From: a virus | Length of the DNA stretch: 64,000 bases | Virus record (IMG/VR): IMGVR_UViG_3300027908_000023 | Span: 1-64,000 of that record | Reading direction: 5' to 3' (one strand) | Shown: in pieces, positions 8,821 to 62,050 of the stretch | Layout of the letters: each line of letters starts with the position of its first letter | Numbering within the stretch: the stretch's first letter is position 1 | Made by a program: the position numbers and the translations under genes | Notes under the pieces: generated by a model | Database searches by the model: none | What the model was told of the DNA's origin: nothing | Seen by the model: only the letters and a program-made list of their open reading frames with translations

Positions 8821-8881
8821 TCTCTATCTACCATCTTGTTCGCTCGCTGTCTAGCGACATTTAACCGTCACCGAAGATTTT
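8821..8881 (-). promoter_or_regulatory. Repeated promoter-like element, leftmost copy
   Basis: Core GCGAACAAG, TTAAAT loop and ATAGAGA end. The TAA inside the loop is the stop codon of the upstream gene (8861-9124). Confidence 0.6.
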
Positions 8882-9124
8882 CCACGCGGCAAGATGCTCA
8901 GCGTCGGCACTGTCCATCGTCGTGACACCATGACGCTCCTGCCAGACACCGCAGCAGGCTGACCAGCAAACACAATCCTTGACCTCGCCATAGCGGCAAT
9001 CGCGAACATCCCGGCATCCATCACACCTGCCAGCCACGATGGCAGTACCGTCCGGCATGTGGAGATGACCTCCATAGACGGTCGGCGGATGACCACAGTG
9101 TATGCAGTTGCGCGTGACGGTCAT
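8861..9124 (-). CDS. Zinc-ribbon protein
   Basis: An 87-residue protein with CIHCGH ... CDGCRD ... C..C, a double zinc ribbon, followed by a C-terminal helix. It resembles the zinc-ribbon part of 62662-63123 (CIHCGAAP ... CQAC). Start 9124 is MTVTRNCIHCG. Its stop TAA lies in the promoter element. Confidence 0.6.
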   Translation of the reverse strand: MTVTRNCIHCGHPPTVYGGHLHMPDGTAIVAGRCDGCRDVRDCRYGEVKDCVCWSACCGVWQERHGVTTMDSADAEHLAAWKIFGDG

Positions 9125-9315
9125 TCGCCCCTCGCTCGTATCAAGGCGGCTATCTCCAGCGCTACCGCCTGCTTGGCTTTGCATTCCATGAGCCTCAGCG
9201 TGTTGCATTGGCCGGTCAGCCGTCTCTCGTTCTCGACATCGCGCAAGTAGACAAGATTGGCCTCATGGGCGCACAAGTCGCGCTCTTCCGCAACTGCCTG
9301 TTCTGATGGCGTCAT
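9121..9315 (-). CDS. Small helical protein
   Basis: A 64-residue protein, MTPSEQAVAEERDL, almost wholly helical; GGGGAG precedes the ATG and the start overlaps the upstream stop. No family recognised. Confidence 0.55.
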   Translation of the reverse strand: MTPSEQAVAEERDLCAHEANLVYLRDVENERRLTGQCNTLRLMECKAKQAVALEIAALIRARGE

Positions 9316-9563
9316 CACGCAACTCCCCTTCGACGAATCGCGGACGCGATGTCGTACTTGGTTCCGTAGAGTTCTCCGTCCCGACCGCAGTTGGAGCATG
9401 TCGGCCAGGCATCGCAGTAGACCTTGTGGCTCTCTGCCAGGCTGGCGCATGCCTCGCGTTCCTCCGCGATGGCTGCCTCCACGATGCCGATGATGGTTTC
9501 CTCGCCGGGCTTCTCGCAGCCATACTCGTCGAACAACATCGTGACACGTTCTCGGGCTGTCAT
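9315..9563 (-). CDS. Small protein of the REAC-helix type
   Basis: An 82-residue protein with the helix IAEEREACASLAE followed by CSNCG and a final ASAIRRRG. Small phage and plasmid proteins often carry this EREACA...IRxRG layout; their function is unknown. Confidence 0.6.
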   Translation of the reverse strand: MTARERVTMLFDEYGCEKPGEETIIGIVEAAIAEEREACASLAESHKVYCDAWPTCSNCGRDGELYGTKYDIASAIRRRGVA

Positions 9564-9961
9564 TGCTTGTCCTCCACACCGTTGACCAGCCGTGCCAACT
9601 CGTCGCGATAGGCGATGGCGTCAGCCTCAGTGTCGAAGCGGATCGGCTTGGTCCGCGTATCGTCCAGCCTCACGTCAACCTCATAGTAGGTCGGCCCCGG
9701 CAATCCTTCTGAGTCATCTATGCTGATCGTGCGGACATCCTCCGGCCGTATCCAGTCGCCGTTCCGTAACTGGATGAGCCGCGCCGGATTCTCTTTCGGC
9801 CGATTGAGCAATCCCTTGACGACCTCGACCTGGCTCGCTAAGAGTTCTTGAGGGGCGTCGTTGCCATGCTTGCCGAAATATTCCCTGATCAGTCCGTAGG
9901 CCGCGAAGTCTCTCAGGTAGGCCAGCAGGGTGTTGATCTCGTTTCTTTCATGGCTGTTCAT
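9560..9961 (-). CDS. Hypothetical protein
   Basis: A 133-residue protein: helical N-terminal half, then a beta segment (IQLRNGDWIRPEDVRTISI, YYEVDVRLDD) recalling a small strand-rich domain, then a helix. Start and stop overlap the neighbours. Confidence 0.55.
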   Translation of the reverse strand: MNSHERNEINTLLAYLRDFAAYGLIREYFGKHGNDAPQELLASQVEVVKGLLNRPKENPARLIQLRNGDWIRPEDVRTISIDDSEGLPGPTYYEVDVRLDDTRTKPIRFDTEADAIAYRDELARLVNGVEDKQ

Positions 9962-10142
9962 CGACTTCCACCTCCTCGTACACCTTCACGATCGCCTTGC
10001 GTTTCTGCTCCGCTTCCCATACTGCCGCAATGCCGAAAATCTCCTGCCCGGGATAGATCCTGCCCGTGGCATCGCGCGGATAATACCACCAGCCAAGATG
10101 CTGTCGCCAGCCTCTATCACGGAGAATCTTCTGCCTGGTCAC
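9948..10142 (-). CDS. Small hypothetical protein, GTG start
   Basis: A 64-residue protein; GTG 10142 overlaps the upstream stop (GTGA). WWYYPRDATGRIYPGQEI suggests a compact aromatic-cored domain. An in-frame extension exists but would overlap the upstream gene. Confidence 0.5.
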   Translation of the reverse strand: MTRQKILRDRGWRQHLGWWYYPRDATGRIYPGQEIFGIAAVWEAEQKRKAIVKVYEEVEVDEQP

Positions 10143-10366
10143 GGGTTGTTTCCCGGCGACTTCACCTGATCGGCCAGATTGGAAGCTCCAATCAACAAGT
10201 GGGCAAGTTCCCACCAGTCACGCCAGGCTTCGTTGTGTTCAGCGGCAAGACATTCCTGCTGCCATTGAACCATGTAGGTCAGCGAATCGAGGACAGCCGG
10301 CAAGCCGAAATCGCGAACCAAAGGGCTGAGCCTTCTGGTCAAGTCAGGATTGTTGTCATGAGCCAT
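10139..10366 (-). CDS. Small helical protein
   Basis: A 75-residue protein starting MAHDNNPD after GAGGAGGAAG; helices with DSLTYMVQWQQECLAAEHNEAW. Overlaps both neighbours. No family recognised. Confidence 0.55.
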   Translation of the reverse strand: MAHDNNPDLTRRLSPLVRDFGLPAVLDSLTYMVQWQQECLAAEHNEAWRDWWELAHLLIGASNLADQVKSPGNNP

Positions 10367-11430: not shown

Positions 11431-11488
11431 GCCTCCACGGAGTTATTCGTCGCTCGCCGGCCGGGATTTAATCCGCGCCTTGATTTTG
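11431..11488 (-). promoter_or_regulatory. Repeated promoter-like element
   Basis: ACGAATAAC core with ATTAAAT loop, between 11490-11759 and 11213-11425. Confidence 0.6.
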
Positions 11489-11489
11489 C

Positions 11490-11759
11490 TCACCACTCCT
11501 TGTATGCCGGTGGAAGGTTCGCCTTGAGCCATTCGTCATCAACCTCCCAACCGTCATCATCCAGCGTGAACGGGATGCCGGCCAGCCTGAGAATCGTCGG
11601 TGTATCGCTGCTGGTCGTCGGATGACTGCCATCGGTCAACACGGCCAGCAATGCCCTGATCTGCCCGCTGACGTGGTTGATGTGGAAACTGTTACAGGAG
11701 TCCGTACAGGCGATGATTCTGGCGACGAGCAGCGCCTTGATCTGTGGTTCGGTCAGCAT
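11490..11759 (-). CDS. Hypothetical protein
   Basis: An 89-residue protein starting MLTEPQIK after GGGAG. Helical N-terminus, then IPFTLDDDGWEVDDEWL. It stops just before the promoter element. No family recognised. Confidence 0.55.
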   Translation of the reverse strand: MLTEPQIKALLVARIIACTDSCNSFHINHVSGQIRALLAVLTDGSHPTTSSDTPTILRLAGIPFTLDDDGWEVDDEWLKANLPPAYKEW

Positions 11760-11761: not shown

Positions 11762-12007
11762 TTACTCCCACTCCTCTCCATCAGCACGCCGTTCCGCCAT
11801 GAGATACACGGCCAACCTGGCATCCTCGTTGAGATCCGTCCACAATTCCCGTAACTCATGCGGCACATGGTTGCGCCAGTCATGGACGCGGCTCGTGGTC
11901 CTCCAATCGGGACGGAGGATGTCCTCCACGGCATCGCGGTCGAGACTGATCGCGCTGACGGAGCCGTCATCGTCTGCCAGGCGTTCCAGGAAGTCGCGTG
12001 CCGTCAT
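11762..12007 (-). CDS. Acidic hypothetical protein
   Basis: An 81-residue protein. Start 12007 (MTARDFLERL) has GAGGGCG upstream; ATG 12070 in the same frame would overlap the upstream gene and is the alternative. Contains LRELWTDLNEDARLAVYLMAERRAD, clearly helical. Confidence 0.5.
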   Translation of the reverse strand: MTARDFLERLADDDGSVSAISLDRDAVEDILRPDWRTTSRVHDWRNHVPHELRELWTDLNEDARLAVYLMAERRADGEEWE

Positions 12008-14726: not shown

Positions 14727-15080
14727 TCACACGCTGGCAATCAACCGCGTGACGGCCACGACCTGTCCGTCCTTCCTGATGGCGCCATCGTTGGGACCGG
14801 TTCCCGGAGCGAACACGTCGGAACGTGTCACGCGCGCCAAGACCAGCGCGCTGACAAGGTAAACCGTGCCCTCATCGGCGGCCGGTATGCCCTCCACGTC
14901 GCCGTATTGGGTCGGTCCAGCAACCGGGATACTGACACCTGACGGCGTCAGGGATCGCAGCGTGACGGCACCCGGGATGCTGGCCACGCGGGCAACCTGT
15001 CCGCTCGGCGGAATCACCATCTCCTGCCCGCTCGGGAACCGCAACGTAATGGCGTGCGGCATGAGGTTGATGATGTTCAT
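14727..15080 (-). CDS. Phage protein of the MNIINLTPHAI type
   Basis: A 117-residue protein opening MNIINLMPHAITLRFPSGQ, then IPPSG, IPAADEGTVYLVSALVL and APGTGPNDG. This layout is common in phage and prophage genes of unknown function (usual opening M.I.NLTPH.I). Start overlaps the previous stop. Confidence 0.65.
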   Translation of the reverse strand: MNIINLMPHAITLRFPSGQEMVIPPSGQVARVASIPGAVTLRSLTPSGVSIPVAGPTQYGDVEGIPAADEGTVYLVSALVLARVTRSDVFAPGTGPNDGAIRKDGQVVAVTRLIASV

Positions 15081-15544
15081 GGGACTTTTCCTTTCAGGTC
15101 CGGCAACCGGCCGGAGCGGTCAGAGGAGTTGTGTTCCCTCTGGAGAGTAATTCGTCGCTCGCGAGCCGTCATTTTGACCAGCCGGAAAAATATGCCTGGC
15201 GATAGCGCTCGCGCAGGCCGATGTCCTTCATCGTCTGCCTCCAACGGCATCGTTGTCATATAGATCCGCCCCGCCACGGAGGCGAGGTAATCCTCTGCCA
15301 TCTTCCGATCCGCCGCGTAGGCTTGCGCGGCCAGGCTGGCATCGCGGGCCACTTCTAGCCGATAGTCACGGCTAAAGAGCATCTCCACCATCGTCAGGTC
15401 AATGCCGGCCTGGCTGTCCTCCAGCCACGCCTCCAGAAGTCGCCTGAACAACCCTGGCGGGACAAAGTGAAGGCGCTTCGTTGATCGGCCATAGCCGACG
15501 ACGAACGTGATGGTCTTTCTGGTTGTGTCCTTGATGCGCAGCAT
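15077..15544 (-). CDS. Hypothetical protein overlapping a promoter element
   Basis: A 155-residue protein (MLRIKDTTRKT) after AAGGGACG. The frame has no stop at the usual loop TAA, because this copy reads CAAAATGA there, and runs through the element to the next ATG. The N-terminal 110 residues look like a normal domain; the tail after about residue 125 may be incidental. Confidence 0.55.
   Translation of the reverse strand: MLRIKDTTRKTITFVVGYGRSTKRLHFVPPGLFRRLLEAWLEDSQAGIDLTMVEMLFSRDYRLEVARDASLAAQAYAADRKMAEDYLASVAGRIYMTTMPLEADDEGHRPARALSPGIFFRLVKMTARERRITLQREHNSSDRSGRLPDLKGKVP
15139..15190 (-). promoter_or_regulatory. Repeated promoter-like element inside a reading frame
   Basis: Variant core ACGAATTAC, lying within the 3' part of 15077-15544 and upstream of 14727-15080. 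Confidence 0.45.
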
Positions 15545-18795: not shown

Positions 18796-20118
18796 ATGAA
18801 TGCACGCGAAGAGCGCGGACTGGTCATCGCGGCGGTCTGCAAACTCAACCCCACTCCCGAAGGTTGGCTTGTCCCCTCGCAGTCCGGCGAGCGCATCTAC
18901 ACGGTCGATGTCAAGAAGCAGACCTGCACTTGCCCGGACCATGAGGCGGGGCACAAGTGCAAGCATATCTACGCCGTGGAATTCACCCTCAAGCGCGAGG
19001 TAAACAGCGACGGCACGATAACCGACACGAAGAGCATGACCTTCACCGAGAAGGTAACATACCGCCAGGACTGGCCTGCCTACAATCTCGCGCAGAGCAT
19101 CGAGAAAGACCGTCTTCAGGAACTCCTGCGCGACCTTTGCCGGGGAATCGAGGAGCCGGCGCACGACGGCATGGGCCGCAAGCCGCATCTGGTCAAGGAT
19201 TGCATCTTCGCGATGGTGTTCAAGGTCTATTGCACGCTGAGCAGTCGGCGCTTCTCCAGCGACCTCCGGGAGGCGCACGCACGCGGGTACGTCAGCAAGG
19301 AGATCCCTGGCGTGAAGGTGTGTGCCTTCATGGAGAACGCGGCCTTCACGCCGCTGCTCAAGAGCCTGATCTACCAGAGCAGCTTGCCGCTCCGCATCGT
19401 CGAGACGAAGTTCAGCATCGACAGCAGCGGTTTCTCGACCAACAAGTTCATGCGCTGGTATGACGAGAAGTACGGCGTCACCCGGCAGAAACACGCCTGG
19501 GTCAAGACGCATATCATGTGCGGGGTCAAGACCAACATCGTGACGGCTGTTCGCATCCTGGACAAGGACGCGGGAGACTCTCCGCAGTTCATCCCTCTCT
19601 TGAAGGACACCCGCAAGGGTTTCACGATCGGGGAAGTCAGCGCGGACAAGGCATATGCGAGCCTGGACAACTTCGAGGCGGTCGCGGAGTGTGGCGGGAC
19701 TGGCTTCATGGCCTTCAAGAAGGACGCAACGGGTGGCGTGGGCGGCATGTTCGAGAAGATGTTCCACTATTTCCAGTTCCGCAAGGACGACTTCCTGAAG
19801 CACTACCACCTTCGCTCCAACGTCGAATCCACCTTCAGCATGGTCAAGCGAAAGTTCGGGGACCACGTTCGCAGTAAGGGCGAAGTCGCAATGACGAACG
19901 AGGCACTGTGCAAGTTCGTCTGCCATAATCTCTGCTGTCTGATTCAGGAGCAATGCGAACTCGGCATCGAGCCGATCTTCTGGACGGACGGGCAATCGGT
20001 TAAGCTGGTCGCTGGCGATGGGGAGGCTGCGTTGCCGGCGCGGCTGGCGTTGCCCGCGCCGAAAAAGCCGGACCCGCCGCCGCCCCCGTCGTTCGGGAAT
20101 GTGATCTATGTCGGTTGA
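18796..20118 (+). CDS. DDE transposase with SWIM zinc finger
   Basis: A 440-residue transposase of the 4.4 kb element. N-terminal SWIM finger CTCPDHEAGHKCKH (about 49-62), then an RNase H-like core with Asp in FSIDSSG (about 208), Asp in SADKAY (about 283) and Glu in RSNVEST (about 344). The C-terminal tail is Pro-rich. The family resembles IS4/IS5-superfamily transposases with an added SWIM domain. Upstream AGGAG supports the start. Confidence 0.85.
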   Translation: MNAREERGLVIAAVCKLNPTPEGWLVPSQSGERIYTVDVKKQTCTCPDHEAGHKCKHIYAVEFTLKREVNSDGTITDTKSMTFTEKVTYRQDWPAYNLAQSIEKDRLQELLRDLCRGIEEPAHDGMGRKPHLVKDCIFAMVFKVYCTLSSRRFSSDLREAHARGYVSKEIPGVKVCAFMENAAFTPLLKSLIYQSSLPLRIVETKFSIDSSGFSTNKFMRWYDEKYGVTRQKHAWVKTHIMCGVKTNIVTAVRILDKDAGDSPQFIPLLKDTRKGFTIGEVSADKAYASLDNFEAVAECGGTGFMAFKKDATGGVGGMFEKMFHYFQFRKDDFLKHYHLRSNVESTFSMVKRKFGDHVRSKGEVAMTNEALCKFVCHNLCCLIQEQCELGIEPIFWTDGQSVKLVAGDGEAALPARLALPAPKKPDPPPPPSFGNVIYVG

Positions 20119-20209: not shown

Positions 20210-20600
20210 AAGAAAAACAAGCCGGCGGGGGTCGAACCCGCATCCGCTCACTTAGAGTCAGCGGATAAACCCAGACGCTTCGGCCGTGGCAGGCGGCCAT
20301 CGCCCAGGAGAACCGCGATAGGCGGTTCGCCCTTCCTCTGCCAGTCGCTCATGATTTGGAGATCGCACGGGGCGTCGAACCCCTCAGCTCAGGTTACCAT
20401 CACGGCCAGCCTTCGTGCCCCCAGGTGCCCCTGGGGGGTTGCGAGAGGCATCGCAAGCCTCTCTGGCCGACCGTTACTCTACCCTCACCTAGCCGGCTGG
20501 CGCGGATGCGATTCCGCTTTTAGCCGGCGGGAACCTTGCGGGTTCCCACCCATCCACGCATGGGCATGATGCGACCGTTTGTTTCCTCCGGGCGATTGCT
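20210..20600 (-). ncRNA. Structured non-coding RNA, tRNA/tmRNA-like 3' end
   Basis: About 390 bases without a coding frame, starting at promoter copy 20600-20656 and ending in a T-rich run (TTGTTTTTCTTTTTC) at 20206-20220. Stems seen: GCCGGCT/AGCCGGC around GCGGA/TCCGC; GAGAGGC/GCCTCTC with a 7-base loop; CCCCCAGG/CCTGGGGG; GAACCGC/GCGGTTC. The 3' end has a T-arm-like hairpin GCGGG-TTCGACC-CCCGC preceded by a helix with loop CTCTAAG, which would put CUA at the anticodon position. A second TTCGACG hairpin lies near 20375. It may be a tmRNA, a tRNA with an odd fold, or a new RNA. Confidence 0.55.
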
Positions 20601-20656
20601 CCTACCTTAGTTATTCGCTGCTCACGAGCGAATCTTTGGGCGATGGTTGTTTTTTC
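20600..20656 (-). promoter_or_regulatory. Repeated promoter-like element driving the ncRNA
   Basis: AGCGAATAAC core with a TTCGCT/AGCGAA stem; no protein gene follows, only the structured RNA. Confidence 0.55.
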
Positions 20657-21038
20657 ATCTCGCCAGCAACGCAACCCCATCAGCAGATCCAAGTACGGCC
20701 GGACGGTTGCGATGGTCCACGGTCAGCCGCGCCTCGGGAAACTTTTCCACGAAGTCCGCGACGGCAAGCCACTTCGCCTTGACTCGCCCGCACTCGTCTT
20801 CCGTGAACGTCTCAACTTGTTTCCATCTGCTTCCTGCCAGCCGTGGCAGCACCTCGAAGCGCTCCACCTTGGCTCGCTTGGCCTCCTGATAGGCCGCGAT
20901 GCTGGCGTCCAGGTCGGCCTGCGCTTTTGCATCGCGCTAGGCCTGTCCGGCCGCATTGCCGCTTGGCCGATCTGTTCCGTCATCGCGCGCCTGGGCGTCC
21001 GCCGCGATGCTACGCTGTCCGCCGATTCCGAGAGACAT
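20655..21038 (-). CDS. Ala/Gln-rich protein interrupted by one in-frame UAG
   Basis: A frame from ATG 21038 (MSLGIGGQRSI) meets UAG at codon 34 (20937-20939) and continues in the same frame for 93 more codons to 20655. Composition is continuous over the stop: ...NAAGQA, UAG, RDAKAQADLDASIAAYQEAK. The second part has no good start and ribosome site at its beginning. Either recoded UAG, a recent nonsense mutation, or a sequence error. Confidence 0.55.
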
Positions 21039-21067
21039 GATTTGCTCCTCTGGTTGCTGGTCTTGGC

Positions 21068-21123
21068 CTCTGTAGAGTAGTTCGCTGGCCGGGAGTCTCC
21101 ATTTGATCAGCCAGCGAATTTCC
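21068..21123 (-). promoter_or_regulatory. Repeated promoter-like element
   Basis: Core GCGAACTAC; 9-bp stem TTCGCTGGC/GCCAGCGAA. Confidence 0.6.
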
Positions 21124-21390
21124 TCAACACCAGTGCCCACACTTTCCGCACTTCGGCACCATGAGAGACAGCAGAGAATAGTCATGGCTGCCGCATCGCG
21201 AACAGGTGAACGGTGAAGGTATCTCCTCCACTTCGACACGGTATTGCCCGGCAAGCTGCCGCGCCAGGTCGCGATCAACGGCGACGCGCCGGCCTTGATC
21301 GCGACTCCACATCGGCTCGCCCTCGTAATCCTTGCCGGCGTACCAAATCCGTCCCTCGGGAAATTCCCGCCAGACATAGTATCGGTCCAT
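21124..21390 (-). CDS. Zinc-ribbon protein
   Basis: An 88-residue protein starting MDRYYVWREF after GGAGG, with C-terminal CSRCG ... CGKCGHWC zinc ribbon. The N-terminal aromatic segment FPEGRIWYAGKDYEGEPMW looks like a small beta sheet. Function unknown. Confidence 0.6.
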   Translation of the reverse strand: MDRYYVWREFPEGRIWYAGKDYEGEPMWSRDQGRRVAVDRDLARQLAGQYRVEVEEIPSPFTCSRCGSHDYSLLSLMVPKCGKCGHWC

Positions 21391-22211: not shown

Positions 22212-22269
22212 GATCTACCATGTAATTCGCCGGCCAACCGTGGATATTTAACCACTCTCGGAAAATTTC
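22212..22269 (-). promoter_or_regulatory. Repeated promoter-like element
   Basis: Core GCGAATTAC; the loop TAA is the stop of 22248-22457. Confidence 0.6.
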
Positions 22270-22457
22270 CGCACTGCCTCCTTGCCGGCCTCCGTCAGTT
22301 CATGCTCCCACGTCAGCAACCCGCGCTTGACCAGCGCCCGCACGGTGCCGTCCAGCCCGCCATAGTCGCTTTGACTCCGGCAATGGTAACTGATCGATCG
22401 TCCCTTGAAGACGTTCACCAGCGCTCGCAACATGGAGGGAGAGAGCTTGTTGGCCAT
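22248..22457 (-). CDS. Small winged-helix-like protein
   Basis: A 69-residue protein with RALVNVFKGRSISYH ... VRALVKRGLLTWEHELTEAGKEAVRKF. The ending 'LTEAGKEAV' after a beta turn is typical of winged helices in small phage proteins. CGGAG precedes the ATG. Confidence 0.55.
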   Translation of the reverse strand: MANKLSPSMLRALVNVFKGRSISYHCRSQSDYGGLDGTVRALVKRGLLTWEHELTEAGKEAVRKFSESG

Positions 22458-23104: not shown

Positions 23105-23138
23105 GATCGAGGCTCCCTTGTGGTTTGCTTTCATCCCG

Positions 23139-23193
23139 TCCATCGTTATTCGCTGCTCACGTCCCGGCATTTAACCCGGCACCGATTATTTTT
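23139..23193 (-). promoter_or_regulatory. Repeated promoter-like element
   Basis: AGCGAATAAC core and GTTAAATG loop. Confidence 0.65.
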
Positions 23194-24027: not shown

Positions 24028-24088
24028 TCTCTCCAGAGAGTATTTCGTCGCTCGCGCCGGCTCCTTTGAACGAAATCGAGAAATCTTT
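24028..24088 (-). promoter_or_regulatory. Repeated promoter-like element, variant
   Basis: Core GACGAAATAC; loop changed to CAAAGG, so the reading frame passes through. Confidence 0.5.
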
Positions 24089-24403: not shown

Positions 24404-24464
24404 TGTCTACAGTGTTATTCGCTGGTGCCGACCCGATATTTAGATCGGCACCAGGATTATTTCC
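24404..24464 (-). promoter_or_regulatory. Repeated promoter-like element
   Basis: GCGAATAAC core; perfect 9-bp stem TGGTGCCGA/TCGGCACCA around a CTAAAT loop. Confidence 0.65.
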
Positions 24465-24794: not shown

Positions 24795-24856
24795 GTCTCT
24801 GTATGGTTATTCGCCGGCCGGACCGGCGGATTTAACCGCCGGGCGAAGAATTTCCT
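24795..24856 (-). promoter_or_regulatory. Repeated promoter-like element
   Basis: GCGAATAACCATACAGAGA end; CGGCGG/CCGCCG stem around TTAAAT. Confidence 0.65.
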
Positions 24857-25081: not shown

Positions 25082-25143
25082 TCTCATCTATAGTATACTT
25101 CGTTGGCTGTCTACCGACATTTGAACCGCCGCTCACTTTTTCT
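25082..25143 (-). promoter_or_regulatory. Repeated promoter-like element, variant
   Basis: ACGAAGTATACTATAGATGAGA; the core is replaced by TATACT, which looks like a sigma70 -10. Confidence 0.5.
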
Positions 25144-25578: not shown

Positions 25579-25637
25579 TTCTCTACTAGGTTATTCGCTG
25601 CCGGCGCGGCCTTATTTGAACCGCGCCGGGATTTTCC
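25579..25637 (-). promoter_or_regulatory. Repeated promoter-like element
   Basis: GCGAATAACC core; 9-bp stem CCGGCGCGG/CCGCGCCGG. Confidence 0.65.
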
Positions 25638-25646
25638 TCCCGTTTC

Positions 25647-25870: not shown

Positions 25871-25931
25871 ACTTCTACTAGGTAATTCGCTGGCCGAAAG
25901 CCGGGATTTGATTCGCTGGCAAGGAATTCGG
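25871..25931 (-). promoter_or_regulatory. Repeated promoter-like element
   Basis: GCGAATTACC core, CAAATC loop. Last copy before the plus-strand island. Confidence 0.6.
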
Positions 25932-26401
25932 GAGATTCCATGCGCGCCGGTTTGACCGATTGGGGAGAGATGGGGTAGAAAGCAGATCAGCTAGAGCCGA
26001 TTGGCCCTAGCTGAAATGTCCCGAGCTGGTCACAACTCCACCCGGGAAGTCTGTACGGTGTTGCCGGCCGAACAGCGAAGGCCACTTTAGCAAGCCACTT
26101 CGCAGCCGTCAACCCCAATCCAGACAAACAACCTAGTCAACCAAATCAGCGATGCGGCAACCGCTGACCAAAGAACAGCCGCTAGATACTGACAGCCAGG
26201 CGATCTAATCCACCGACTGGCCGTAGGTATCGGGGAGCAACGGAAGTATAGAGCGGAGAACAAGTACCCTCCGAGCCGACATGAGTTTCTGTCAGGGGTC
26301 GTAAAACCGGACACTCGCGGGGAATGCCGATCGAAGCGTATGGCCCATGCACAGCAGCCAAGCCATAACCCTTCCAGCAACGTGAGGCAGACCAGCGCAG
26401 T

Positions 26402-26514
26402 TCTGACCGGATCTAGCCCGGTCAGATCACGAAGGGCGACCGTGAAGGAAACGATTGAAAGCTGCGACGCAATCCCGGTGCAACCGCCAGCAGGACGGGC
26501 GATGATCTGACCGG
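26402..26514 (+). ncRNA. HEARO/IscB guide-RNA-like structured RNA
   Basis: A perfect 12-bp closing stem, CCGGTCAGATCA (26418-26429) with TGATCTGACCGG (26503-26514), encloses CGAAGGGCGACC, GGAAACG, GAAAGCTGCGACG and CGCCAGCAGGACGGG. These blocks match my memory of the HEARO RNA family, now known as the guide RNA of IscB nucleases. TCTGACCGG occurs at 26402-26410 and again in the 3' strand, so the 5' strand can pair with either: a switch-like arrangement. No IscB gene follows. A covariance-model search would settle it. Confidence 0.45.
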
Positions 26515-26572
26515 TTGATCCATGCGTGCGAGGTTTCAGTACCCAACCTGTACAATTGCACCCTCAAAGGAG

Positions 26573-26587: not shown

Positions 26588-26592
26588 AATAG

Positions 26593-43753: not shown

Positions 43754-44864
43754 GACTTGTCTCCGGGACGTTGTTGGTGTTGATGCTGGCCTCTTCCTCG
43801 AATGGAAGTTCCATCATCTGGAAAGTAGTTCGTCGCGGGGCGATGTATATTGCTTCCTCTTCGTGGATTTCTTCTGGATTGTTGCTTGTGGCCTCCATGC
43901 TGGCCGGAGTGCTCACGGCCGGTTCCTCGCTCGCCAGTTCCGCGCCGTCGTCGAAGCTGATTCTTCGCTTCGGTGCCGTCACGATGTTCTGGTCAATCTG
44001 CTGCGAGAGCGTCTCAATACCGGCCTTGATGTCCTGGCGGAGTTGCTCGTTGGTTCGCAGCGCCTGCGAAGTGACACCAGAAACCAGCCCTTCCGCTTGC
44101 TTCACCAGCGCATCCAGTTCGGGATTTGAACGCACCGAAAGACTCTGGAATCTCCCGAAGAATTCCCGGAAATTATCAATAGCGGTTGAAGAGAGAATCT
44201 TCCGCCCCTCCGGCCCATCGGTGAGCCTCTCCTGAAGATGGTTGACCAGCTTGGCGAATTCTTCCGCGAACATACTCTCTGCCATCTGTACGGCCTGATC
44301 GAAGCGTGCCGCGATGCGCTGGCGCTCCTGCTCGTAAAGAGCCGGATTGAGGTTCTTGAGGTAATCCGGTGGCTCGACGCTGGGGTATTCCCATTCGATG
44401 GCGAAAAGATTGCTCACGGTTTCCGGGTAATCCTTGGCATCAAAGAGCCGACCGAGACGGACGGCGGCTTGCTCTCTGACCGTGGCATAGTGGTCCGCGA
44501 AGTCGGCAACCGCGCCGGCCAGTTGAGAGCGAAACTCCGTCATCTGGGCATCGAATTCGGCGACTTGCTGCTGACGCAAGAGCCGGATGCCAGGTTCCGG
44601 GAAGGGCAGCGTAGAGTCTTTCCAGAAGGTCCGGATTCTGGAGCGGAGCGTGGTCAAGACCTTGTATACCTTGTCCTTGGTATTGATGAGCTTCTTCGAT
44701 GCGCTGATGGCATCATCACTGGCCCCGAAGGTATCGGCGGCTTCATGGGCATGGTCAGCAGAAAGGCGCTTCGTGGTCCCCATCCACGTAAAGCTGATCC
44801 TCACCGCTGCCGCGTTGACGCGAAGTTCCTGCGCGGCATTGTTGTTCGTGGTGTTCTCGGACAT
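43743..44864 (-). CDS. ATPase-associated helical protein, DUF3150-like
   Basis: A 373-residue protein: after a short disordered start, ISFTWMGTTKRLSADHAHEAADTF, ASKKLINTKDKVYKVL, then a long helical region with FRSQLAGAVADFADHYATVREQ and EWEYPSVEPPDYL, and an acidic disordered tail. This resembles DUF3150 proteins, which pair with AAA+ ATPases in phages and plasmids; the ATPase gene is directly upstream. Function unknown. Confidence 0.55.
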   Translation of the reverse strand: MSENTTNNNAAQELRVNAAAVRISFTWMGTTKRLSADHAHEAADTFGASDDAISASKKLINTKDKVYKVLTTLRSRIRTFWKDSTLPFPEPGIRLLRQQQVAEFDAQMTEFRSQLAGAVADFADHYATVREQAAVRLGRLFDAKDYPETVSNLFAIEWEYPSVEPPDYLKNLNPALYEQERQRIAARFDQAVQMAESMFAEEFAKLVNHLQERLTDGPEGRKILSSTAIDNFREFFGRFQSLSVRSNPELDALVKQAEGLVSGVTSQALRTNEQLRQDIKAGIETLSQQIDQNIVTAPKRRISFDDGAELASEEPAVSTPASMEATSNNPEEIHEEEAIYIAPRRTTFQMMELPFEEEASINTNNVPETSHVA

Positions 44865-44900: not shown

Positions 44901-44940
44901 TGTCCCCACAAGAAGTATTTCGCTGGCGAGTTAGCAATAT
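44901..44940 (-). promoter_or_regulatory. Repeated promoter-like element
   Basis: GCGAAATAC core; its stem merges with the hairpin at 44941-44976. Confidence 0.5.
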
Positions 44941-44976
44941 TGAGGAAATCCAGAACAACTATTCTGGATTTCCTCA
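44941..44976 (-). terminator. 15-bp perfect hairpin after the AAA+ gene
   Basis: TGAGGAAATCCAGAA and TTCTGGATTTCCTCA with a 6-base loop, directly downstream of the AAA+ ATPase stop. No T-run follows, so it may stabilise the 3' end rather than terminate. Confidence 0.5.
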
Positions 44977-44986: not shown

Positions 44987-46492
44987 TCACGCATCACCGG
45001 CGATGCGCCGGCCCGACGGCCGATGAGATTCGGCGGGATCGTTGGCCCTTCTCAAACTGCTGGCCGCGTGCCGCATGGCGTCCAGTTGCGCGGTCTGCGT
45101 CCGGCTTGCCGGCGAGTAACCCTCGCAAACCTCCATGATGCTATCGGAGGTCGGCTTGCGCTTGGTGCGCCGGGCAACGGACGGGCAAAGGTATTCGGCG
45201 ATCTCGCGGGAAGACCAGCCTTCCGTCGCCTGCGCGGCCGCGAGAGCGGCTTCCTCGATATTGTCACAACCGAGCCTTGTGAAGTGGATGCGTGCCACGT
45301 CTCGACGCTCGGAAAGTCCGCCCAAATCGTAAAAGAATCTGGCCTGAAACCGACTCTCAAGGGCCGCGTCCAGCTTGTCGAGCCTATTGAGAGTCGCGAC
45401 CACAAGCGCCATACTCTTGCTTTCCTGAAGCCAGGTCAGCAACTCGGCGAACATGCCGGAAGAGGTTCCACCGTCAAGCCCTTCCCTGGCAATGGTGTCG
45501 ATTTCATCAATCACCACGACCAGCGGGCATTCCATTGACAGCGAATCAATGGTCGAAAGCGCCCGTCTCAATGCCTGTTCGGAGGCGCCAACAATGCCGG
45601 CCTTGAGGCCAGAGATGGAGAGGCGCACCGTTTCCGTATTGAGTTGCTGGCCGATCCAGCGGGCGCCATAGCTCTTCCCCGTCCCCGGCAAACCAGCGCA
45701 GAGGATGCGCCGCACGGCCAATTGCGGATCACGTACCCACGGCACAACCTCTTGCGTGACATAATCGCGGAACCCAGACAACCCACCCAGATCCGCAACA
45801 GAAGGCCAGAGTTCCAGCCCGGCAGAGCGCAGTAGCCTTGCTCGCTCACCACGCAAGTAAGCCGGGTCCCAGGTGCCCTTGCGCGCCGCCAGGCACTCAG
45901 CGGCTGCTTGCTCTGCGACATCGCTATCCAGTCCGCCCAGAGCGTCAAGGACCGCCTCCGCATCGCCGTTGAGCGTATGCAGACTGGCCGCAATGGCTCG
46001 CAACGATTCCCGGCCGATGGCGGGAAGTCTCAATACCGGGATCGCGCCCCGCAGCGGGTTGGCCGGAGTCAGTTCCCACGAAGGTCCGACGAAGACCACC
46101 AGCGAGGCGGGATCGCTTGCCCCTGCGCCTTTGGGGCTGCGCAGGCCAGGCAGGGCATCGATCAGTTTCCGCCAATGGCCGGCCGAATTGATGAGCGTGT
46201 GGAAGTCATAGACCAGAAGCAACCTTCCCGGCGCTGCCTGTGCCCATGAGATACCACCAGCCAGGCCGGTAACGCCGTTCTCCGGTCTTCCCGTCCTGGC
46301 ATCCTTGACGGCCTCGCTTGGCGCCGCCACGGTGCAGACCTGCGCGGCAGATGGTAGTTCGCTCAATATCTGGCGAAGGAGCCGGGACTCTTCTCGTGTC
46401 TCGACCAGCACGGCACCGGTGCCGGCACGGTAGTGGCTGAGAATGAGCGGAGTTGGCTTCTGGCTGGTCTTGTTCTGAGTCGTGGTCGTCAT
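44987..46492 (-). CDS. AAA+ ATPase
   Basis: A 501-residue protein. Residues about 1-230 form a less conserved domain with VLVETREESRLLRQIL and LLLVYDFHTLINSAGHW, which reads like a degenerate ATPase-like half. The C-terminal half has Walker A GLPGTGKS (about 267), Walker B VVVIDEID, sensor 1 VVATLNRLDKLDAAL and an ESRF arginine-finger region, as in FtsH/Cdc48-type AAA proteins. Such proteins remodel protein complexes; the substrate here is unknown. GTCATGG start with GGAG upstream. Confidence 0.8.
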   Translation of the reverse strand: MTTTTQNKTSQKPTPLILSHYRAGTGAVLVETREESRLLRQILSELPSAAQVCTVAAPSEAVKDARTGRPENGVTGLAGGISWAQAAPGRLLLVYDFHTLINSAGHWRKLIDALPGLRSPKGAGASDPASLVVFVGPSWELTPANPLRGAIPVLRLPAIGRESLRAIAASLHTLNGDAEAVLDALGGLDSDVAEQAAAECLAARKGTWDPAYLRGERARLLRSAGLELWPSVADLGGLSGFRDYVTQEVVPWVRDPQLAVRRILCAGLPGTGKSYGARWIGQQLNTETVRLSISGLKAGIVGASEQALRRALSTIDSLSMECPLVVVIDEIDTIAREGLDGGTSSGMFAELLTWLQESKSMALVVATLNRLDKLDAALESRFQARFFYDLGGLSERRDVARIHFTRLGCDNIEEAALAAAQATEGWSSREIAEYLCPSVARRTKRKPTSDSIMEVCEGYSPASRTQTAQLDAMRHAASSLRRANDPAESHRPSGRRIAGDA

Positions 46493-46534: not shown

Positions 46535-46592
46535 GTTCTATAGATGTATTCGCTGGCTGTCCGCCGACATTTAAGCGATAGAGCGAAATATC
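46535..46592 (-). promoter_or_regulatory. Repeated promoter-like element
   Basis: GCGAATACATCTATAGA end, TTAAATG loop. Confidence 0.6.
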
Positions 46593-46995
46593 ATATTTTG
46601 CCGGCGCGAACAAGGGCAGTTGTGGCGCTGATATGCTTGCAATGTCCGTGAGCCTCGAAGCCCTTGCAGTCGCAGCACGCCGGCCCCTCATCGACGATGG
46701 TTTCTCCTTCCGGGCTGGTCATCACCGTGCCACCCGGACCGCCGATGTTGGTGTGATAGACCTCGCCACCCTGGGCGAAGAACTTCGTCCAGCGCACGGC
46801 GAAGCCCCAATCGCTGGGGATGACGCAAAGCCAGTAGAGCGTAGACTTCTCGGAGCGCGGTCCGCGCTCCAGGATCTCGACCATGCACTCCTGGCCGCGC
46901 GAACGGCGCGTCAAGAGGCGGATCACGCGGGATTTCGGCTTGCGGCCGGACTTGGCCTTGACGGGATGGGTGTCGGAACCGTAGGTTACGGTCAT
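46591..46995 (-). CDS. SWIM-like zinc-finger protein
   Basis: A 134-residue protein with C-terminal CCDCKGFEAHGHCKHISA, the CxC...CxH SWIM signature, which binds DNA or protein. The N-terminal half is basic (KAKSGRKPKSRVIRLLTRRSRG). First gene after copy 47068-47127. Confidence 0.65.
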   Translation of the reverse strand: MTVTYGSDTHPVKAKSGRKPKSRVIRLLTRRSRGQECMVEILERGPRSEKSTLYWLCVIPSDWGFAVRWTKFFAQGGEVYHTNIGGPGGTVMTSPEGETIVDEGPACCDCKGFEAHGHCKHISATTALVRAGKI

Positions 46996-47067: not shown

Positions 47068-47127
47068 TCTCTACATGGTTATTCGCTGGCCGGTAGCGAT
47101 TATTTAATCCAGCCAGTAGCTTTTCTC
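47068..47127 (-). promoter_or_regulatory. Repeated promoter-like element
   Basis: GCGAATAACCATGTAGAGA end, ATTAAAT loop; a good reference copy. Confidence 0.7.
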
Positions 47128-47280: not shown

Positions 47281-48450
47281 CTACTCCACCGCGTTAACGC
47301 GGCGGCTTCTTGGCGGACGCTTGGCCCGTTGGCCTACGTTGACCGCCACTGGCGCAGTCCGCGCCAGTCCTCTTGCGAGGATGTTTCGAGCAGCATTGAT
47401 GTCCCGATCAAGAGAGAGCCCGCAGTGATGACAGTGGTGCCATCTTACCGTGAGATCCTTGACCACCAGCGCGCCGCATTCGGAGCAGCGCTGCGTGGTT
47501 CCACGGGGATCAACCTCCACGAACCGCACTCCGGCTTTTTCAGCCTGGCAGCGCAGAACGCTCAGGAAGCCGGCCCAGCCGGCGTCACTGATCGACCGGG
47601 TGTACCTGCCGGTCGCCAACATCCCCTTGATGTCGAGCGCTTCGGCAGCGATAAACCCGGACGAGAGCACCAAACGACGGGCGACCTGAAGGTGATGCTC
47701 GCGCCTGAGATTCTTCACGCGAGCGTGAAGTTTCTGCAAGCGCTTCACGGCCTTGCGGCGGTTCTTGCCGCCCTTCTGTTTGCGGACCATCGAGCGACCG
47801 GCGCGGCGCAGTTCAGGCAGGGCGGTCTTGAGGTAACGCGGGTTGGCTTCCGTGGTCCCCTCGCTGGTGGTCAGGAAGTGGGTCAGGCCAACGTCGATAC
47901 CCACGGCAGGCAAACCGTTATCGACAATCACCACGTCGGGCAACTCACAGGAGAAGACCACGAACCACTTGCCCGCTTCGCGCTTAATGGTGACGGTCTT
48001 GATCGTGCCTTCAACGGGCCGATGCAGCTTGACGCGAATCGTGCCGACGTGCTGGACATAGAGTTTGTTGCCGGTCAACCTGGTGCCGTCGCGGTAGGCT
48101 GGGAACTCGAAACTGTCGAAGCGGTCGCGTCCCTTGAATCGCGGAAAGCCGGCCTTGCCCGTGCCCTGGCTGACACGACGGAAGAAGTTGGCGTAGGACT
48201 TGTCGAGACGGCGCATCGTGGCTTGCGCACTGGAGAAGTTCAGGCGGGCGAAAAAGGGATTGGTGGCCCTCTGTCCCTTGAACCATCCCGATTGATCAGC
48301 ATACTTCACCGAAATCCCGGTGGATTCGTAGCCGATGATTCGCTGCTCCAGACAGGCGTTGTACAGCCTGCGATGAGTTTCTAGGCAGGTAGCGAGTTCG
48401 CGCTCCTGGTTGGCGTTGGCGAACAGACGGTAGCGGAAGGCGCGGCGCAT
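47281..48450 (-). CDS. tnpB: TnpB RNA-guided nuclease
   Basis: A 389-residue protein with an intact canonical site: RuvC-I GIDVGLTHF (Asp about 185), RuvC-II IAAEALDIKGM (Glu about 268), zinc finger CSECG ... CHHCG, RuvC-III DRDINAARNI (Asp about 347). N-terminal RAFRYRLFANANQE is typical. TnpB cuts DNA guided by an RNA from its own 3' end, helping the element persist. Start MRRAFRYRLF. Confidence 0.9.
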   Translation of the reverse strand: MRRAFRYRLFANANQERELATCLETHRRLYNACLEQRIIGYESTGISVKYADQSGWFKGQRATNPFFARLNFSSAQATMRRLDKSYANFFRRVSQGTGKAGFPRFKGRDRFDSFEFPAYRDGTRLTGNKLYVQHVGTIRVKLHRPVEGTIKTVTIKREAGKWFVVFSCELPDVVIVDNGLPAVGIDVGLTHFLTTSEGTTEANPRYLKTALPELRRAGRSMVRKQKGGKNRRKAVKRLQKLHARVKNLRREHHLQVARRLVLSSGFIAAEALDIKGMLATGRYTRSISDAGWAGFLSVLRCQAEKAGVRFVEVDPRGTTQRCSECGALVVKDLTVRWHHCHHCGLSLDRDINAARNILARGLARTAPVAVNVGQRAKRPPRSRRVNAVE

Positions 48451-48832: not shown

Positions 48833-48858
48833 GGTTGTTTTCCTGATCTCAAAAGCGG

Positions 48859-48915
48859 CGACATGAGGTTATTCGCCGCACCGCCATTTAGATTTAAGCG
48901 CCGGTACGGTTTTTC
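48859..48915 (-). promoter_or_regulatory. Repeated promoter-like element
   Basis: GCGAATAACC core; loop TAA is the stop of 48894-49136. Confidence 0.6.
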
Positions 48916-49136
48916 TTTCGCCGGCATGGATGCGGATAGCTTCCCGGCTCGAAGACATCCACCTCCTGGATCGGCCGCAACAGCGCGGCCGAATCGCAAT
49001 GACACGGTTGCCCGGCCAGATTATTACCGCCGAAACTCTCCTGGCAACCGCAACGGTCGCAGAAAAACACCCGAGCCGAGAATTCAGCCCACTCTTCCGC
49101 GAAGGTCCTCGGGACAACAATGTGGTCGTCTTCCAT
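48894..49136 (-). CDS. Small zinc-binding protein
   Basis: An 80-residue protein with FFCDRCGCQESFGGNNL ... QPCHC, a plausible zinc site, and a basic C-terminus. No family recognised. Confidence 0.55.
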   Translation of the reverse strand: MEDDHIVVPRTFAEEWAEFSARVFFCDRCGCQESFGGNNLAGQPCHCDSAALLRPIQEVDVFEPGSYPHPCRRKKNRTGA

Positions 49137-51260: not shown

Positions 51261-52361
51261 TCAGACAACAGAAATAGCCGCATCGACCACCGCGCCGCCG
51301 TGCTCTCTCCTGCCAGCATCGCACAGCGCATCAAGGATAATTGCCATCTCAGTATTTGCCTTGAGGCCAACCGAGCCAGCCAGATCCTTCCGGCTCAGCA
51401 CCTTCTCGCCCTTGGCCAGATCGCGATACTCGCCATCAACCTCCACAACCATGACCTTATGCGTGCCGATGCCGGTTCCGCGCTCCTGCCGGACGGCGAT
51501 CAGGTCCAGAACCTCGGAACCGTCCTCCAGATAACCGGCCGGTTCCGCGTCCAGCACAACCTCATCCCGGTAGGTGTCCAACGAGCGAGCGCTCACGGTA
51601 TCCATCCAGTCGCGCCTTACGGTCATGGTGTGGACGCTCTCCTGTTTGCGGAACGTGCAGCGTGAGGAGTATTGCTCGCCCTTGCTCATGTGCGAAGTTG
51701 CGCCGGGCGCAACTTCCGTGCCGGGCGGAAGGACCACCACGCGAACCGCATGCCCCTGCTTGGCCGTGCGATAATCGCAAGAGTCATAGGCAGCCCGGAC
51801 ACCGCTCCGCGCCGGCTTCTCCAGTTCGCGCTGACGGTCATAAGCTTTCCGGCGACGCGCTTCCTCGCGGGCAGCCAGACGGCGTTCTTCCGCGACCTCA
51901 ACGGCCAGAACCGCGACGGCTTCTTGCACGACCGCTTTTCGCTCGTATTGAAGCAACTCCTGCGTGTAGGTCTTGTTCGCCCGCGCTGCCATCAATGCCA
52001 GCGTGTGGAAGCCAGGATCGGCCAACAACTCCGTTGCCGTCATGGGCCGGCGATCGCGGATGCGTGCGGCCAGCGCTTCGGCCGACAACTTGGCCGGGCA
52101 GCGGTCCGCGTTGCGGTCCGTGATCCGCCAGTATTCCTTCCTGATGGCCTGGCGAACCGCGCCGGGAGCATCAGAGGCAGGACTCATGCCGTGGAAAAAG
52201 TTGTGGTTGGTAAATTGCTCAATGCTCACCGACAACTCGGTATAGCCGCGAACGCGCACCAGTGCGTCGGCCGGCATCGGCAACGGGAAGTCCGGGCAAA
52301 GGTCGGACAAGAGGTAGACGGTATCGGTGTAGGTGCTGGCGCTGACGGAAGAAGTGCTCAT
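51261..52361 (-). CDS. Hypothetical protein, 366 residues
   Basis: Start MSTSSVSAS (52361) after promoter copy 52435-52495. N-terminal half: LLSDLCPDFPLPMPADALVRVRG; middle: a charged helix (VAVEVAEERRLAAREEARRRKAYDRQ), probable coiled coil; C-terminal half beta-rich with MVVEVDGEYRDLAKGEKVL. No family recognised. Confidence 0.6.
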   Translation of the reverse strand: MSTSSVSASTYTDTVYLLSDLCPDFPLPMPADALVRVRGYTELSVSIEQFTNHNFFHGMSPASDAPGAVRQAIRKEYWRITDRNADRCPAKLSAEALAARIRDRRPMTATELLADPGFHTLALMAARANKTYTQELLQYERKAVVQEAVAVLAVEVAEERRLAAREEARRRKAYDRQRELEKPARSGVRAAYDSCDYRTAKQGHAVRVVVLPPGTEVAPGATSHMSKGEQYSSRCTFRKQESVHTMTVRRDWMDTVSARSLDTYRDEVVLDAEPAGYLEDGSEVLDLIAVRQERGTGIGTHKVMVVEVDGEYRDLAKGEKVLSRKDLAGSVGLKANTEMAIILDALCDAGRREHGGAVVDAAISVV

Positions 52362-52434: not shown

Positions 52435-52495
52435 TTTCTATCAAGCTATTCGCTGGTCGTCAAGGGAGATTTGAGCGGAAGAGGAGATTTTTCAG
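52435..52495 (-). promoter_or_regulatory. Repeated promoter-like element
   Basis: GCGAATAGC core, TCAAAT loop; marks the boundary between the portal cluster and the accessory train. Confidence 0.55.
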
Positions 52496-60500: not shown

Positions 60501-60516
60501 GGTATCATCTCCTTGA

Positions 60517-60810
60517 TCAACCGGGCAGCACACCATGATACTCGTCCCGCCACTTCTTGCTGAGCTTCTCGCGAATCAGATACAGGTCATCGAAAATCCC
60601 TCGCAATCGCTCCAGGTATTCGCGCTGGCTCGGCTCGCCATAACCCGTCTTGATCAGCAGTTCAAGCAACGGGTCATGGCCGCCTTCAAGGCGAACAAGA
60701 AACTGCGCGAAGGTTTCATCGGCTCTCGGCCTGGGATGCGCCGGCGCTTCCTGATAGGCATCGTACACGACTCGCGGCTTGGCCTTGCGGCCACGTCCGG
60801 TCTTCGGCAT
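60517..60810 (-). CDS. Small hypothetical protein
   Basis: A 97-residue protein, MPKTGRGRKAKPRVV: basic start, then helices ending in REKLSKKWRDEYHGVLPG. AGGAG upstream of 60810. Confidence 0.55.
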   Translation of the reverse strand: MPKTGRGRKAKPRVVYDAYQEAPAHPRPRADETFAQFLVRLEGGHDPLLELLIKTGYGEPSQREYLERLRGIFDDLYLIREKLSKKWRDEYHGVLPG

Positions 60811-60844
60811 GGCTGTTTCTCCTGAATGACGATTACTATATGGT

Positions 60845-61075
60845 TCAACATTCAGACTCACGATGCATCGCGGCATCGAGCAACGCTTTCCCGTGGCGCT
60901 TGTGGCAGCCGTCGATGTACCGGTGGATCATCCCGCGAAGCGTGTTGACCTCAACCTCCGTCAGTTCGCCAATCGCGTCCGCCGCGCTATCGTGGCTTGG
61001 CCGCAATTTACTGTAGTGACCGGCGGCGAAACTGATGTAGACATTGACACGTCCAGTCTGAGTATGAGATTTCAT
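60845..61075 (-). CDS. Small hypothetical protein
   Basis: A 76-residue protein starting MKSHTQTGRVNVYISF after GGGAG; a helical end, LRGMIHRYIDGCHKRHGKALLDAAMH. No family recognised. Confidence 0.55.
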   Translation of the reverse strand: MKSHTQTGRVNVYISFAAGHYSKLRPSHDSAADAIGELTEVEVNTLRGMIHRYIDGCHKRHGKALLDAAMHRESEC

Positions 61076-61113
61076 CGAGACTACTCCCGGGCGAAACAGG
61101 GGCGACTTCTTGG

Positions 61114-61959
61114 TTACACTCCTACTAGCTCCATCTCTTCTACCACGACCGGCAGCTTCCCCACTTGCAAGGTCACGACTTCGTAATCCGCCAGCGTCAA
61201 CTGCTCCAGCGACTTCACATGATGGAGATCGCATACCCGGCTGATGCTGATTTTCCGCGTCTGGCACAACCGCTTGATAAAGTGTACCTGATCGTCCGTG
61301 ATAATGCTTGCCGGATCGGGCTTCGCTTCCACGGCATGACCGTTGCCATTGTGGCCGTTCGTGCCGTTGGCATGGTGCCCGTTGCCGGTTCCGGAAAGCC
61401 TCGGTGTCTGGCTAAACTGCCGCTTCCTCGGATCGTAGTCGTACCAGTCTGCCTTGATCCGGTAGAGATAGCGGCCGATGCCGAACTTCACGGCCGCGCG
61501 TTTGTGGGCATCGGAGAACGCTGCCTTGCGGCGGTCCCCCTCATCGTCCTGCTGGGAAGGGCTACCGACATCCTGCTTCTCGATCCATTCTCCACCGATG
61601 CGCACCCGCAATCGGCAGATCACGCTGCCCATGATGACCTCTTCTCCAAGGATCATCTCGTCGCAATCGTTGCCGTCCTTGTCCTTGACTGTCCTGCCAG
61701 TCTTCTGCATGGCCGGCACGCGAGCATCGGGAAGAACCTCATATGAGGTTTCCCAGCCGCCAATGCCGAGAACTTCGTCAAGGCGATCCTCAACGGTGCG
61801 GACATCTACATAGGCAAAAGCGAGAGCGCGATTGCCAACGGTCTTGCCGGGAAGAAACTTCACGTCCTCAATGTCGAACGGTGCGGCCAGCGCGGCAGCG
61901 ATGGCCTGGACATCAATGGTGGTCTGCGTTGCAGTAGTCCCGGTGGTTGCTGTCGTCAT
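61114..61959 (-). CDS. Rad52-like single-strand annealing protein
   Basis: A 281-residue protein. YVDVRTVEDRLDEVLGIGGWETSYEV, CRLRVRIGGEWIEKQDVG and AFSDAHKRAAVKFGIGRYLYRI are the core motifs of the Rad52/22 family of annealing proteins. These pair complementary DNA strands in phage recombination. A Gly/Asn/His-rich linker (about 195-215) follows, then a C-terminal helical domain. First gene after copy 61990-62050. Confidence 0.85.
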   Translation of the reverse strand: MTTATTGTTATQTTIDVQAIAAALAAPFDIEDVKFLPGKTVGNRALAFAYVDVRTVEDRLDEVLGIGGWETSYEVLPDARVPAMQKTGRTVKDKDGNDCDEMILGEEVIMGSVICRLRVRIGGEWIEKQDVGSPSQQDDEGDRRKAAFSDAHKRAAVKFGIGRYLYRIKADWYDYDPRKRQFSQTPRLSGTGNGHHANGTNGHNGNGHAVEAKPDPASIITDDQVHFIKRLCQTRKISISRVCDLHHVKSLEQLTLADYEVVTLQVGKLPVVVEEMELVGV

Positions 61960-61989
61960 GGCGTTTATCCCCTGGAAGGCGATGCTTCA

Positions 61990-62050
61990 TCTCTTCACAG
62001 GGTTATTCGCCGTTAGCCGACCGGGATTTAATCCGCCAGGAAGTTTTTGT
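61990..62050 (-). promoter_or_regulatory. Repeated promoter-like element, rightmost copy
   Basis: GCGAATAACC core; the loop TAA is the stop of 62028-62237. Confidence 0.65.

Follow-up and report, generated by a model that had tools for sequence, protein, structure and literature searches.

A 59-base promoter-like element in 36 same-strand copies along the leftward genes of a virus fragment

What reads the long train of leftward genes in IMG/VR virus record IMGVR_UViG_3300027908_000023? The DNA analysed here, which we call the window, is the whole stretch of 64,000 bases at positions 1-64000 of this 98,536-bp record; the remainder of the record was handled as two loci, L005 and L006, such that L005:8407 corresponds to record position 72407 and L006:4811 to record position 87811. 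The record is a fragment, in which an in-house gene caller finds 199 open reading frames (ORFs), 191 of them leftward. An earlier reading of the letters alone (the original prediction) had proposed that some 36 hairpin elements in one orientation serve as promoters for these genes. We ask whether the elements form a genuine family, whether the hairpin defines that family, and what kind of polymerase might recognise it.

A position weight matrix (PWM), whose seeds combined a GCGAA-type block and an AAA box upstream of it, converged on 39 matches on the minus strand and none on the plus strand. From these we dropped an overlapping register (38057), a weak match (43833) and a match in the right part of the record (72407). 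The family that remains has 36 members, each 59 nt long and on the minus strand, and spans 8.8 to 62 kb. The predicted number, range and single orientation are confirmed at the positions given, including the six copies that had been singled out as examples. Scored with each copy left out in turn, the 36 copies range from 11.9 to 52.4, as compared with a maximum of 5.9 in 20 dinucleotide-shuffled genomes and 0.9 on the sequence's own plus strand; the anticipated enrichment over shuffled sequence is therefore present. The repeat family is real. Three low-scoring matches outside the 36, at L005:7362 (record 71362), L005:8407 (record 72407) and window position 43833, are possibly decayed copies or chance.

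All 36 copies align in MAFFT over 59 columns without a gap, in agreement with the claim of constant spacing. Read in the sense of the genes, the consensus consists of an A-tract, GGnTTAAAT, 15 bases, GCGAATAAC, four bases and TAGAGA, followed by a leader, a Shine-Dalgarno sequence and a start codon. With the numbering set so that the GCGAA block begins at position 0, the A-tract lies at about -41 to -34, a G at -23, TTAAAT at -21 to -16, CC(A/G) at -3 to -1, GCGAATAAC at 0 to 8, and TAGAGA at 13 to 18. The AA of TTAAAT and the CGAA are invariant across the alignment, and the A-tract block is 70% A+T, as against a window of 58% GC. The bases between the blocks are nearly free to vary and the four blocks hold their exact spacing; a gapless alignment with variable spacers is what one would expect of a surface at which protein contacts DNA.

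To relate the element to the genes, we assume position 15, the G of TAGAGA, as the reference start site. Measured from there, a plausible start codon follows 31 of the copies at a distance of 23-77 nt. The median distance is 36 nt among the 35 copies for which a downstream ORF can be proposed, most distances falling between 23 and 46 nt, with outliers at 10 and at 56-87 nt. The leader is rich in A and C and poor in T (A 38%, C 36%, G 17%, T 9%), and a Shine-Dalgarno sequence is present in the leaders of nearly all copies. That the copies stand upstream of minus-strand genes, as had been stated, holds for nearly all of them. The exceptions are the weak copy at 20600-20658, which lacks a clear downstream gene, and four atypical or doubtful cases: 11432-11490, whose closest start codon is atypically near; 21067-21125, where the downstream gene is not clear; 40639-40697, which precedes a TnpB gene and has a sigma-70-like TTGACA-17-TACCAT shortly downstream; and 42994-43052, for which the assignment of the downstream gene is doubtful.

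The reading that we favour, and hold to be probable, is that each copy is a leftward promoter for a sigma-dependent, bacterial-type RNA polymerase of non-standard specificity. We arrive at it from the single orientation, the position before genes, the rigid spacing, the A/C-rich leader with its Shine-Dalgarno sequence, and a layout that resembles UP, -35 and -10 elements. Relative to a start at the G of TAGAGA, the blocks occupy about -56 to -49, -36 to -31 and -15 to -7, and AATAAC stands 18 bp downstream of TTAAAT in all 36 copies, these boxes being our own choice. The element thus has two boxes within the 16-18 bp expected of a sigma promoter and, given the assumed start, an A/T-rich block between -40 and -60. 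For comparison, the recognition elements of the sigma-70 holoenzyme are UP (-40 to -60), -35, TGn (-15 to -13) and -10 (PMC2988021). The A-tract would then act as a UP-like element, TTAAAT as the -35 box and (CCA)GCGAATAAC as an extended -10 box, and transcription would begin in or beside TAGAGA, giving an A/C-rich leader of roughly 30-40 nt that carries the Shine-Dalgarno sequence. The reader would most likely be the host core polymerase equipped with an alternative sigma factor, either supplied or altered by the phage, and the many copies could act as one regulon, turning on together a region whose genes are small and for the most part of unknown function. What the letters show is the family itself, its rigid build, its orientation and position, and that a hairpin is not obligatory; promoter activity, start site, type of polymerase, timing and the role of the hairpin are all things that we infer from them. 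Phage lineages commonly have a promoter consensus of their own, and for this reason we regard the copies as a probable promoter set of a known kind. If the reading is correct, a single phage fragment holds one regulon in which the promoters number at least 36 and have boxes of an unfamiliar type; the set would reveal the specificity of the transcription machinery, and would provide a handle for finding the sigma factor or polymerase as well as relatives in metagenomes. It would also illustrate how, in a compact phage, a single stretch of DNA can supply both the stop codon for one gene and the promoter for its neighbour.

Several points weigh against this reading. Both the start and the boxes were chosen by us, in part because the geometry then fits, and the geometric agreement is therefore suggestive and no test. 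TTAAAT and AATAAC match TTGACA and TATAAT poorly, and the conservation of TAGAGA around the assumed start is more typical of single-subunit polymerases. No relative that could show evolutionary conservation came out of the searches of phages, plasmids, viral contigs and Planctomycetota described below. Finally, the proposed search of the rest of the record for a polymerase or sigma gene came back empty: no sigma, anti-sigma or RNA polymerase gene was recognised in the 98.5-kb fragment, either in Pfam scans of nearly all called ORFs or in PHROGs scans, a result that falls short of absence, the record being incomplete. PHROGs alone covered the terminase, the portal and two TnpB genes, and some ten plus-strand or very short ORFs fell outside both kinds of scan; the PHROGs scans took in three protein alignments and some larger ORFs, leaving out 43 proteins of another alignment, and for one set cover the 25 families listed of 37. 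A targeted search for the sigma family PF04542 found none, its controls having worked, and one for the RNA polymerase family PF00940 found none, with no working control.

Might the reader instead be a single-subunit phage RNA polymerase of the T7 type, with GCGAATAACC as its specificity region, melting at NTA, a start at GAGA, and the upstream blocks merely accessory? The longest contiguous run of conservation, from CCA to TAGAGA, spans about 22 bp and includes a conserved purine start, and many copies in a single orientation would suit such an enzyme; T7 RNA polymerase itself recognises a span from -17 to +6 (PMC4496689). A promoter of this type would be one contiguous conserved block of about 23 bp with the start site at its end; CCAGCGAATAAC-N4-TAGAGA is indeed conserved, yet two more blocks upstream are conserved too: TTAAAT and the A-tract keep fixed distances further upstream, TTAAAT as strongly as the core. 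The lack of a recognised RNA polymerase gene among the scanned ORFs counts here as well, with the limits of the PF00940 search and of a fragmentary record already given. We consider this explanation unlikely, though it is the most serious of the alternatives.

A different possibility concerns the boundary between neighbouring genes. In eight copies, the upstream ORF takes its stop codon from the TAA within TTAAAT. These are 61992-62050, which precedes a Rad52-like gene (61114-61959) and supplies the stop of ORF 62028-62237; 48858-48916, with an imperfect hairpin; 38344-38402; 38060-38118, which lacks an A-tract; 35100-35158, one of the least foldable copies; 32518-32576; 22212-22270; and 8825-8883, before the gene at 8281-8766. 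In two further copies the upstream ORF reaches into the left arm, which is thus coding in ten copies altogether. It is conceivable, if rather unlikely, that the 59 bases form a cassette that ends one gene and starts the next, whose -35 region doubles in some copies as a stop codon and, in one copy out of four, as a hairpin in RNA that terminates the transcript of the upstream gene, and whose reader is an unrecognised phage transcription factor or polymerase.

We turn now to the hairpin, whose stems were said to differ in sequence and stay paired in many copies, as in the promoters of N4-like phages. An exact stem of at least 7 bp between the arms occurs in only 9 of the 36 copies, as compared with an expectation of 1.7 obtained by exchanging arms among the copies; the other 27 have at most 6 bp, and the six copies originally cited are all among the nine. 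These nine are 42372-42430 (8 bp, before 41625-42338), 35829-35887 (9-11 bp), 35468-35526 (10-12 bp), 31886-31944 (11 bp), 29161-29219 (7 bp, and the top PWM score), 25580-25638 (9 bp), 24796-24854 (7 bp, around TTAAAT), 24404-24462 (10 bp) and 21067-21125 (7-9 bp). Their loops are at least 6 nt long and centred 14-18 nt upstream of GCGAATAAC. The stems share no common register, their pair sums sliding from -29 to -37, and in none of 31 registers is pairing of a copy's own arms clearly above that of swapped arms (top z 2.4). RNAalifold returns no consensus pairs on the 36-copy alignment, and significant covariation beyond shuffles is lacking both in a stem defined around TTAAAT and in a second one that pairs with CCAGCGAA. 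The whole element does fold better than chimeras (-12.3 versus -10.1 kcal/mol, 1 in 10,000 permutations), an effect that is due to about nine copies. The hairpin is a real but optional trait of a subset, and not the core of the family; as a defining feature it is ruled out by the arm-swap, register, RNAalifold and pair-count tests. Under the sigma-promoter reading, the strong hairpin around the -35 box in about a quarter of the copies would be a secondary addition, perhaps the 3'-end hairpin of the upstream transcript.

The folding data also bear on whether the element acts in RNA rather than DNA, that is, as a processing site, a regulator of translation or a 3'-end hairpin within polycistronic transcripts. 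Taken together, the copies fold slightly better as sense than as antisense strand (paired p=0.012, with no correction for multiple testing), which fits, weakly, a hairpin in the transcript of the upstream gene. Long stems occur only where the left arm is free of coding sequence (0 of 10 copies with a coding left arm versus 9 of 26 others; Fisher p=0.039, post hoc and uncorrected), and read-through would place every copy in a transcript. Nevertheless, 59 nt without an insertion or deletion and with no common fold would be unusual for an RNA element, and the A-tract is equally strong in hairpin and stemless copies (4.4 versus 4.3 A of 8, p=0.87). Hence we regard an RNA-level role for the family as doubtful.

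The same comparison of A-tracts makes it very unlikely that the element is a promoter joined to an antisense terminator, in which a plus-strand hairpin followed by a T-run would halt rightward transcription: the plus strand of the hairpin copies 25580-25638, 29161-29219 and 42372-42430 does read as a stem followed by GGATTTT or similar, but copy 35468-35526 has A where T would be expected. Still less credible is the suggestion of an N4-type promoter, extruded as a hairpin in supercoiled DNA and read by a virion RNA polymerase. The excess of long stems in nine copies speaks for it; three quarters of the copies are stemless, which already largely refutes it, the registers slide, consensus pairs and covariation are absent, and ten copies have a left arm that belongs to the coding part of the upstream gene. 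The hairpins of N4 virion RNA polymerase promoters are centred near -11 and have a 3-base loop (PMC4496689), whereas the loops here are larger and lie further upstream. The original interpretation is therefore retained in part: a promoter fits the orientation, position, spacing, leader and layout, which is indirect evidence, while the N4-type hairpin is unsupported. A dispersed mobile repeat, such as a miniature inverted-repeat transposable element or a repetitive extragenic palindrome spread by resident IS605/TnpB elements, can be dismissed almost entirely, since even though the record holds four TnpB/OrfB-like proteins and a DDE transposase and some copies are palindromic, the copies keep a single orientation, nearly all precede start codons, and their spacers diverge while the four blocks keep exact spacing.

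The distribution of the element along the record hints at two promoter classes. In the left 64 kb, 29 of 54 larger gaps contain the element and 4 contain a sigma-70-like match; in the right part, the element is found in none of 12 larger gaps and a sigma-70-like match in 5. The top sigma-70-like matches are TTGACA-17-TATCAT and TTGACA-16-TAGGAT. The second class is only a hint because L005 overall has 11 such matches against a shuffle mean of 7.8 (sd 3.3), not clearly above it. No copy belongs to the terminase-portal cluster itself, just as had been noted. Its genes, however, run leftward on the same strand downstream of copy 61992-62050, and could be read from there.

The remaining copies, all on the minus strand, complete the family. 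Those with an assigned downstream gene are 52435-52493 (before 51261-52361), 47068-47126 (before 46591-46995), 46535-46593 (before an AAA ATPase at 44987-46492), the weak copy 44905-44963 (before 43743-44864), 41557-41615 (before a RusA-like/processivity-factor-like gene at 40695-41522), 24030-24088 (before a 45-codon ORF) and 15137-15195 (before 14727-15080). At 37560-37618 the upstream ORF ends within the GCGAATAAC block. The others lie at 36315-36373, 34363-34421, 33416-33474, 30944-31002, 25872-25930, 25085-25143 and 23135-23193. Within this very dense region, about 850 bp at 25900-26690 are without a called leftward gene and without an Rfam match; indeed, no Rfam family matches anywhere in the record.

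As for gene content, the recognised genes encode terminase subunits, a portal protein, DnaB, a RecE-like/YqaJ nuclease, a replication initiation protein and Rad52; most of the small proteins have no assigned function, and genes for capsid, tail or DNA polymerase were not recognised in the 98.5-kb record. The four TnpB/OrfB-IS605 proteins are encoded at window positions 38951-40360 and 47281-48450, at L005:10076-11353, whose best score is to the Cas12f1-like TNB domain, and at L006:1018-2400. A DDE transposase with a SWIM finger lies on the plus strand at 18796-20118, and a second, partial copy at 34-405 (plus strand), at the left end of the record. A CRISPR-like array at L006:15067-15536 (record 98067-98536) is built from a direct repeat some 37 nt long, present seven times as GTTGCAACCTTCAAGCCGTTGCACCGGCCATTGTTAC or one of two variants with a spacing of 71-77 nt, and runs off the end of the record; outliers of one or two repeats occur at record 91029-91140 and 95053-95096 and at window 7773-7809, and no cas gene was recognised. 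Two related, strongly self-complementary A/T-rich segments of about 100 bp (TTTGCAGTTTGCATTTTAG type) occupy intergenic gaps in the right part, at record 87811-87911 and 94873-94977 (L006:4811-4911 and 11873-11977).

Relatives of the element were sought in several ways. Two correctly spaced patterns, scanned against viral contigs, gave single matches only; the patterns recover no more than 4 and 10 of the family's own 36 members and so might overlook a relative that has diverged. Rescoring fetched viral loci with the PWM gave no convincing set, the best result being a lone match of 33.2 points in locus L215, within the range of the own copies. A blastn search of the consensus gave four weak matches in phages (E 2-7) and none in plasmids. 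Among proteins, terminase relatives in viral contigs reach at most 42% identity, and the AAA ATPase, a 366-aa ORF and the portal have no relatives there. The collections may omit records very near this one, and the absence of relatives is accordingly limited evidence. The DDE transposase is 71% identical to one in a metagenome-assembled genome of a groundwater member of the Planctomycetota, a weak hint at a host in, or an environment shared with, that phylum. The idea that the element is a host promoter of this phylum was rejected: the exact motif has no match in 294 Planctomycetota genomes.

Among described systems, the nearest in anatomy is the extended start-associated sequence (ESAS) of cluster K mycobacteriophages, a motif some 46-50 bp long that is present in multiple copies ahead of some of the non-structural genes, with putative -35 and -10 promoter boxes 17-18 bp apart that are overlapped by an imperfect inverted repeat (PMC3203893, PMC11373665). 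The ESAS has a conserved repeat and SigA-like boxes and, in Adephagia, seven promoter-bearing copies; most ESAS are linked to the 13-bp start-associated sequence, SAS (PMC3203893, PMC11373665). Our element shares with it the combination of a multi-copy motif before genes, promoter-type boxes and an inverted repeat, but differs in its 36 copies, its boxes, which are not SigA-like, and its stems, which are optional and free in sequence and register. The SAS GGGATAGGAGCCC has no match in the window with up to 2 mismatches, and the element has neither conserved arms nor a consensus fold of the kind that the conserved 17-bp inverted repeat of the ESAS would require. Since the SAS is absent here and the ESAS repeat is conserved in sequence, the element is not an ESAS. 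Cluster O mycobacteriophages carry a 17-bp palindromic repeat in more than 30 copies per genome (PMC4351075), and are thus similar in copy number across one phage genome; that repeat, however, is a symmetric, near-invariant palindrome, often intragenic and without meaningful orientation (PMC4351075).

With the promoters of the N4 virion RNA polymerase, some copies of the element share inverted repeats of variable stem sequence; the hairpin here is not obligatory, has another position and loop, and keeps no common register. The promoter consensus of sigma-28 (FliA) is TAAAGTTT-N11-GCCGATAA. The element resembles it in the TAAA box, in a nearly equal spacing and in a -10 block of GC followed by ATAA, but is one base longer and has GCGAATAAC in place of GCCGATAA; this is a resemblance only, and TAAAGTTT-N11-GCCGATAA has no match in the window with up to 3 mismatches. 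So-called PeSL elements of T4-like phages were dropped as a comparison, the literature searched having yielded none. Unlike the boxes TTAAAT and AATAAC, which are not close to TTGACA and TATAAT, those of T4 early promoters are good matches to the sigma-70 consensus of the host (PMC2988021). In their working, nevertheless, the T4 early promoters are the nearest likeness that we have, being a set of many similar, strong promoters built from UP, -35 and extended -10 blocks (PMC2988021).

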